Source: an uncultured Gammaproteobacteria bacterium (GTDB lineage: Bacteria > Pseudomonadota > Gammaproteobacteria > HyVt-429). From it: 64,000 bases of DNA. Within the stretch, counting starts at the first letter, position 1. The number at the start of each line of letters is the position of its first letter. The notes beneath the pieces were generated by a model, which was not told the DNA's origin, ran no database searches, and was given only the letters and a program-made list of their open reading frames with translations. Position numbers and translations under genes: made by a program. Below are positions 16,862 to 35,728 of this stretch, piece by piece. The stretch is from positions 51,926 to 115,925 of the forward strand of contig CAMYOD010000060.1 in assembly GCA_947259975.1 (NCBI GenBank), written 5' to 3'.

Positions 16862-16977
16862 GCCTCTCGCGTCGGCTGGGGGTCCGCCAAGCGTCGTCCG
16901 GCCTTGCGCGACGCAGGGAGAGCGAAGCGCAAGGCCGCGAGATTAAGCGCGGCGGGCCCCCAGGCGGCGCGAGATGA
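16862..16977. repeat. Long intergenic palindromic element, copy 1
   Basis: Arms CTCTCGCG.CGGCTGGGGGTCCGCC and GGCGGGCCCCCAGGCGGCGCGAGAT, inner arms CGGCCTTGCGC/GCGCAAGGCCG, loop about 16911-16926. Shares CAAGCGTCGTCCGGCCTTGC and GCGCAAGGCCGCGAGAT with 31642-31767. Confidence 0.8.
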
Positions 16978-17068
16978 ATGCGTAAGCTGAGCCACTACCG
17001 AAATCAAAGGGGGGTTCTTGCAATGCCCGGGGCAATCGATTAGTTTGCTTGTTGATCCTATCGTGATC

Positions 17069-17157
17069 CGCTAGGGGTGCCGGGTCGCTCGTTGGAGCCC
17101 GGCTGAGAGACACCCTTTGAACCTGATCCGGTTAATTCCGGCGTAGGGAAGCTGCGT
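17069..17157 (+). promoter_or_regulatory. TPP riboswitch (THI element) upstream of thiC
   Basis: AGGGGTGCCGGGT...CCCGGCTGAGAGACACCCTTTGAACCTGATCCGGTTAATTCCGGCGTAGGGAAGCTG: classical thi-box core (CTGAGA, ACCTGATC, GTAGGGA). Confidence 0.97.
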
Positions 17158-31183: not shown

Positions 31184-31528
31184 TCAGGGCGCCAACCAGT
31201 TGCGGGCGCTCTCGAGGTCGGGAAAGGTCTGCACGTCGGTGTCGGTGAACACGCCCGAGAGCCAGCTGAGCCATGAGACCCATTGCTGCCTCGTGACCAC
31301 CGCGATGCGGCGAAAGTCGCGGCGATGTTGGCGCGCGAACTGAATGTCCTCCCAGGCCACGTCGACGGTGAAACCGGTCATGTTGCTCAGGTCAAACAGA
31401 ACATCGAACTGTGGATAGTCCTTCAGTTCGTCACTGACCGCGCTCTCGAATTCCTCGAAGTCGGCCAGCGTGAGCTCGCCGTAGACGGTCATCTTCAAAA
31501 GGTCATTTACTTCTTCGACTACGATCAT
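31184..31528 (-). CDS. SpoIIAA/STAS-like domain protein
   Basis: LLKMTVYGELTLADFEEFESAVSDELKDYPQFDVLFDLSNMTGFTVDVAWEDIQFARQHRRDFRRIAVVTRQQWVSWLSWLSGVF. Confidence 0.75.
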   Translation of the reverse strand: MIVVEEVNDLLKMTVYGELTLADFEEFESAVSDELKDYPQFDVLFDLSNMTGFTVDVAWEDIQFARQHRRDFRRIAVVTRQQWVSWLSWLSGVFTDTDVQTFPDLESARNWLAP

Positions 31529-31619: not shown

Positions 31620-31797
31620 CTCGTGTCGGCCAGACACCCGTCAAGCGTCGTCCGGCCTTGCAAAAATGGGGTCGGAGTGAAGTTTTCCAGAAAACCTGTG
31701 CATTTGTTGTGTACTTCAGCTGGAAAATTCACTCCGACCCCATTTTTGTAGCGCAAGGCCGCGAGATCAAGCAGGGCGGGTGTCTGGCCGACACGAG
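31620..31797. repeat. Nested palindromic intergenic element, copy 2 (outer arms plus inner GGGGTCGGAGTGAA palindrome)
   Basis: Outer arms CTCGTGTCGGCCAGACACCCGtC (31620-31642) and GGCGGGTGTCTGGCCGACACGAG (31775-31797); inner palindrome AAAAATGGGGTCGGAGTGAAgTTTTCCAG (31662-31690) / CTGGAAAATTCACTCCGACCCCATTTTT (31720-31747). Confidence 0.88.
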
Positions 31798-31895: not shown

Positions 31896-32456
31896 ATGCC
31901 ACATAAACCCATCATTCACACTGTAAACACGGTCGGTGCATCGCGACTGTTTCGCATCGAGCAGGTCGAGCTGGAATTCGCTAATGGCGCCCGGACCACC
32001 TACGAGCGCATTTGCGGCAGCGGGTGCGGTGCCGTCCTGATCGTGCCGCTGCTGGATGACGAGACGGTGCTGCTGATCCGGGAGTATGCGGTGGGGACCG
32101 ACCGTTACGAGCTGGCGTTGCCCAAGGGACGTATCGAGACCGCGGAGACGCCTGAATCCGCGGCCTTGCGCGAGATCCGCGAAGAGGTCGGCTATGGCGC
32201 ACGGCGCATCACCTACCTGAAAGGCGTGACACTGGCGCCGGGCTACTTCGGCGACATTACGCATATGCTTCTGGCACAGGACCTCTATGTCAGCCCCTTG
32301 CCCGGTGACGAGCCGGAGCCCATCGAGGTGGTGCCCTGGCCGTTGGCTAAACTCGACGCGCTGTTCGCGCATGAGGAGTTCACCGAGGCACGCAGTCTGC
32401 TGGCGCTTTACCTGTTGCGCGCGCACCTCGACGTCGCCGCGGGTGTGGCTTCATGA
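31896..32456 (+). CDS. nudE: ADP-compounds hydrolase (Nudix), NudE-like
   Basis: ELALPKGRIETAETPESAALREIREEVGYGARRI: Nudix box. Confidence 0.9.
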   Translation: MPHKPIIHTVNTVGASRLFRIEQVELEFANGARTTYERICGSGCGAVLIVPLLDDETVLLIREYAVGTDRYELALPKGRIETAETPESAALREIREEVGYGARRITYLKGVTLAPGYFGDITHMLLAQDLYVSPLPGDEPEPIEVVPWPLAKLDALFAHEEFTEARSLLALYLLRAHLDVAAGVAS

Positions 32457-35622: not shown

Positions 35623-35728
35623 AAGGTTGCAGGAGGCTTTCGCGAAGACCGTCGGCCGCAGGGACGTGGCCGTCGAGCCTACAGGGATGTATTCACGGCG
35701 TGTCTTCGCGAAAGCCTCCTGGAACCTT
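35623..35728. repeat. Intergenic palindromic repeat element (106 bp)
   Basis: AAGGTTGCAGGAGGCTTTCGCGAAGAC (35623-35649) vs GTCTTCGCGAAAGCCTCCTGGAACCTT (35702-35728): 26 of 27 complementary; spacer carries GCCGCAGGGACGTGGC...ACAGGGATGTATTCACGGC. Confidence 0.88.

Follow-up and report, generated by a model that had tools for sequence, protein, structure and literature searches.

The window, the 64,000-nucleotide stretch of DNA from an uncultured Gammaproteobacteria bacterium analyzed here, carries one palindromic element within another between two divergent genes. This nested hairpin pair is real, and elements of both kinds are already known. Across the 3.22-Mb assembly, about 32 of about 42 copies of the outer element are uninterrupted, and in eight the P2 loop is filled by a shared 86-bp palindrome. 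We think it probable that these are two unrelated small mobile elements and that the inner one entered the apex of the P2 hairpin in repeated, independent events, in either orientation, and took the place of the loop. The outer element would be a YPAL-like dispersed element of ∼140 to 220 bp, one strand of which folds into a three-way junction. The inner one, a nonautonomous relic moved in trans, would be 86 bp long and consist of two copies of the GGGGTC terminal repeat that belongs to a Y1/RAYT-type ("TIRtron") transposase, joined as a palindrome. The original prediction had proposed an insertion of this kind, and neither a set of outer copies that are all filled nor a solitary copy was what we found.

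An interrupted three-way-junction element

We identified about 42 distinct copies of the outer element, family A, by DNA search and a covariance model; the model gave 44 matches, two of which were the reverse strand of others. An alignment of 20 copies with both P2 and P3 intact showed a three-way junction made of a locus-variable P1 stem and the hairpins P2 and P3, in the order P1, AAGC, P2 (loop GCAGGGACAGC), GATTCGAG, P3 (loop ACANGGANGT), and GATTAAGC. Compensatory changes on both sides occurred at 26 of the 44 pairs of this fold, and none of 500 shuffles reached any observed measure. When the partners were slid by 1 to 3 columns, paired cells in the alignment fell from 94% to 28 to 44%. 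Many copies have an extra outermost inverted repeat, TGGCTCAGTTTGCC/GGGCAAACTGAGCCA. Direct repeats, which would mark target duplication, were not enriched beside the family A copies. There was no U-tract of an intrinsic terminator in the copies read, no Rfam match above threshold at family A loci (subthreshold matches only), and no occurrence of the exact family A pattern in the genome_contigs and viral_contigs collections.

The nested palindromes in the window lie where they were predicted, flanked by STAS-type and NUDIX genes (Table 1). Read as one strand, the locus runs from the outer stem through the P2 stem to the inner palindrome. It folds as DNA with a z score of −14.1 (0 of 200 shuffles were equally stable), it matches the family covariance model (R1) with an E value of 1.4e-12 over model positions 1 to 139, and it is the sole occurrence of the GGGGTCRGAGTGAA pattern in the window. 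The outer arms had been put at 23 bp; they are present and perfect, with a length of 21 bp. Inside them, CGGCCTTGC (31653 to 31661) pairs with GCAAGGCCG (31753 to 31761) to form the P2 stem, and the arms of the inner palindrome are 25 nt long, 96% complementary, and 38 nt apart. The inner element was also said to sit where a second copy has a short loop, and that copy (copy 1) does belong to the same family and has an intact P2 loop. P3, which is kept in the 20 aligned copies, is missing from both family A copies of the window; comparison with P3-bearing sequences places the deletion between CGCGA direct repeats. Downstream of copy 1, at about 17060 to 17150, there is a TPP riboswitch-like sequence (CTGAGAGACACCCTTTGAACCTGATCCGG).

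Table 1. Positions of the nested elements, related copies, and neighboring genes in the window
Feature	Position	Strand	Evidence
Outer element (family A copy), interrupted, without P3	31617..31798	+	R1 covariance model, 59.1 bits
P1 left arm, locus specific	31620..31640	+	21/21 complementary with 31777-31797
P1 right arm	31777..31797	+	Pairs with 31620-31640
Conserved AAGCGTCGTC and P2 stem 5' strand	31643..31661	+	Identical to 16889-16907; conserved in family alignment
Inner GGGGTCGGAGTGAA palindrome (TIR dimer) in P2 loop, forward orientation	31662..31747	+	∼13 close genomic copies
P2 stem 3' strand and fused junction GCGAGATCAAGC	31753..31772	+	Compared with P3-bearing copies
Second family A copy (copy 1), P2 loop uninterrupted, P3 deleted	16863..16974	+	R1, 101.4 bits
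Family B (YPAL-core) copy	35623..35728	+	25-nt arms, P2 loop GCAGGGACGT, P3 loop ACAGGGATGT
SpoIIAA-like (STAS-type) gene, left neighbor	31184..31528	−	PF11964, E 1.4e-26
NUDIX hydrolase (nudE-like), right neighbor	31896..32456	+	PF00293, E 7e-15

Recurrent occupation of the P2 loop

The inner palindrome has 13 close copies in the genome, 8 of them in P2 loops, and its asymmetric center makes the orientation readable: four of these eight are forward and four are reverse. With two remnants (C15:41705 and C48:6205) added to the eight complete insertions, 10 of the ∼42 outer copies have interrupted P2 loops. P2 loops cover ∼0.03% of the genome, so that eight of 13 inner copies there corresponds to a binomial P value of ∼3e-26, assuming random and independent placement. 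Since most genomic copies, and distant model matches in other genera, have the loop without an insertion, we take the interruption to be the derived state.

The eight insertions could instead descend from one ancestral composite, with a single entry of the inner element followed by spread or gene conversion and with the inner part flipped by recombination between its arms. The junctions lend this some weight: six to seven of ten resemble each other (TTTTTG-N-A-GCGCAAGG), as one early insertion with later spread or gene conversion could produce, most of those on the right are alike, and those on the left almost always come after CCTTGC. However, a tree of the outer copies, built without the loop columns and weakly supported (one starred branch), needs eight changes and rejects a single clade of interrupted copies (p-AU = 0.007), and the closest relatives of seven of the eight interrupted copies are intact ones. 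Inner and outer distances are also uncorrelated (Mantel r = 0.06, P = 0.44), and the junction in C56 differs from the rest in keeping GGGGACAGCG. We therefore regard a single composite as improbable and favor repeated, independent entry. Copy number, fold, insertion site, and recurrence are shown by the data. The target would be the single-stranded apex of the hairpin, and a Y1 transposase would be the agent of movement.

Related nestings occur in family B, a second family described below. At C78:68423, a TGGA-type GGGGTC palindrome lies in the third GGA hairpin of a composite family B element that has extra GGA hairpins in P2, and an unfilled version of this composite is present in C74 (L357). 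In another genus (G250), the P2 loops of family B copies (L302 and L306) are occupied by different inserted hairpins, which carry GCCATCC(A/T)TGGC-type motifs.

Y1 transposase genes and GGGGTC ends

The GGGGTC motif had been tentatively linked to RAYT genes, and a search for such a gene was suggested. The genome has two Y1_Tnp genes over the Pfam cutoff, 44% identical to each other and with NHVHLL and YRYIELNP motifs; the RAYT protein had no sequence match among solved structures, so its family assignment relies on Pfam Y1_Tnp. One of them (C77:11003-11713) lies between inverted GGGGTC-type ends, GAGGTCAGAGTGATTTATTTTT and AAAAATAGATCACTCCGACCCC, which are the same as the ends of the TGAT-type dimers. 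Near RAYT relatives elsewhere, GGGGTC[AG]GAGT was found at 8 of 80 loci and a control motif at 1 of 80, which bears out the suggested link. The inner element is of the TGAA type and shares with the TGAT-type ends just GGGGTC(G/A)GAGTGA, and we found no transposase with exact TGAA-type ends in the assembly. We infer that the C77 gene may have moved the inner element. Membership among the CGTC-REPs was rejected, since in the published set these start with CGTC, have AT at stem positions 1 and 2, and carry CCA tails (PMC3733652), unlike the repeats seen here. A HigB/HigA toxin-antitoxin pair adjoins the RAYT gene of C77 (L130:1160-2740), with a G(G/A)GGTC(G/A)GAGTGATTTATTTTTAAGCA-like repeat before each unit, and it is possible that this region is a transposon with an addiction module.

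The outer element, the YPAL superfamily, and CsrA-like loops

The affinities of the outer element and the nature of its loops go beyond the original prediction. Family B, present in the same genome and window, has the core GACCGTCGGCCGCAGGGACGCGGCCGTCGAGCCTACAGGGATGTATTYACGGCGTGTC. This core is contained in the published sequence of RU-2/YPAL (...AAGGATGGCGCGGCTCGAGCCTACATGGATGTATTTACGGCGTC...), a 168-bp repeat of Yersinia (De Gregorio 2006, Delihas 2007; PMC2759123), and is present in the family B copy of the window. Rfam Ysr224 (RF02770) is the reverse complement of RU-2/YPAL and scored 47 bits, under its threshold of 70. Allowing at most one mismatch, CGAGCCTACAGGGATGTA occurs in 31 of 369 genomes of the class, in up to 45 copies, and the control gave zero matches; the RAYT relatives and YPAL suggest that this class is the Gammaproteobacteria. 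The core was not found in plasmids, phages, or E. coli; one viral contig, from IMG/VR, has it in a YPAL copy (L405:6100-6400) with a terminator-like hairpin, GGCCACCTGTGTGGCC, on each side, apparently a target duplication.

Families A and B share the three-way junction and a TCGAGC(G)CTACAGGGA stretch. The family A model matches several family B loci weakly (22 to 29 bits) and Yersinia YPAL at 8.9 bits, so we call family A YPAL-like rather than YPAL; its sequence suggests membership in a wider superfamily whose core is the published YPAL/RU-2 repeat. The arms of family B are locus specific, with a mean anchored arm score of 18 versus 1.8 when arms were swapped between loci, and the longest perfect arm is 46 bp (L312). 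Long, near-perfect inverted arms that are unrelated from locus to locus surround a constant 52-bp core at four loci of G240 (L312, L310, L317, and L318) and in the window copy, an arrangement that constrains origin models for such repeats. In the congener G369, the element is absent from the syntenic intergenic regions, whose flanks (72 to 80% identical) are too distant to see whether the arms preexisted.

Two readings of the conserved loops concern the outer element; both are compatible with the nesting and are judged separately from it. The P2 and P3 loops may be recognized by a transposase that works on a single folded DNA strand rather than by an RNA-binding protein, and we give this slightly less than an even chance. 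The elements are dispersed, their presence differs between congeners, YPAL is mobile (PMC2229807), and the GGA strand has no sense bias relative to neighboring genes (8 sense and 12 antisense by crude gene calls that mislabeled the window copy as codirectional). Set against this, a transposase with matching ends was not found here, and none is known for YPAL. The loop, moreover, agrees in all its fixed positions with an established RNA-protein consensus.

That consensus is the CsrA SELEX sequence RUACARGGAUGU, with a six-nucleotide loop closed by AC/GU pairs; CsrA bridges sites 10 to 63 nt apart (PMC7652899). The P3 loop ACANGGANGT (A-C-A-N-G-G-A-N-G-T) agrees with it, including the closing pairs and the free positions, and the P2 loop is similar. 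At its fixed positions, 18 to 20 of the 20 P3 rows match, except at the third base, which is A in 15 rows, and the stem columns immediately outside covary fully. The outer element could be a mobile CsrA-binding module, in which one CsrA dimer would bridge the ANGGAN hexaloops of P2 and P3 on RNA. The copies would serve as dispersed decoys or local regulators, and the inner insertion would break the P2 site. We hold this reading tentatively and lean against it. In its favor, the P2 loop of family B is CANGGANG, a distance of 20 nt separates the two GGAs in the family B copy of the window, and a csrA gene is present in this genome. Among core carriers, csrA occurs in 30 of 31 versus 283 of 338 other genomes, a weak association (P = 0.034) confounded by genome completeness. 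The GGA strand has 67 G-U versus 37 A-C mismatches, an excess that includes related copies and is seen in seven of eight genomes (sign test P = 0.07). However, the sense bias is absent, the stems exceed the length that CsrA prefers, and G343 (85% complete) has 31 copies with no csrA found. A regulator embedded in mRNA was rejected because the orientation bias is absent.

Judged from these sequences, relevant CsrA binding by the outer element is rather doubtful. The broader proposal, that YPAL-like repeats across the Gammaproteobacteria are mobile two-hairpin CsrA ligands whose copies are switched off when hairpin transposons invade P2, seems unlikely; if true, a transposable repeat family has spread tens of CsrA sites per genome. 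The idea is new and testable: our literature search found no paper that treats CsrA and YPAL together, and the consensus match gives the YPAL/RU-2/Ysr224 repeats a partner to test.

Each component resembles a known system. CsrA/RsmA decoy RNAs (CsrB and RsmY/Z) come from one multihairpin sRNA gene; they and the outer element have in common hairpins with a GGA hexaloop that fits the SELEX consensus, whereas here there are tens of dispersed two-hairpin copies. YPAL is likewise dispersed and targets sites with dyad symmetry. Family A resembles it in architecture and in the TCGAGC-CTACAGGGA-GTA stretch but does not share its ends, and the elements here differ in their locus-specific arms (up to 46 bp perfect) and in having a P2 into which another element inserts. 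In TIRtrons, GGGGWSAS inverted ends flank a Y1 transposase gene (Di Nocera 2013; PMC3733652). GGGGWSAS-type inverted ends lie on either side of a Y1 gene here too, with repeats as palindromic dimers, but the TGAA-type inner dimer is without an identically ended transposase in the assembly. REP dimers inside palindromes, also palindromes within palindromes, have been described for A. variabilis GTAG-15, H. neapolitanus CGTC-1, and T. roseum GTAG-23 (PMC3733652). In those cases, the host palindrome serves simply as a target and in most instances was not seen unoccupied, whereas here it is a dispersed structured element with ∼32 empty copies, which together with the eight filled ones make one genome a clean natural record of target choice at a hairpin tip.
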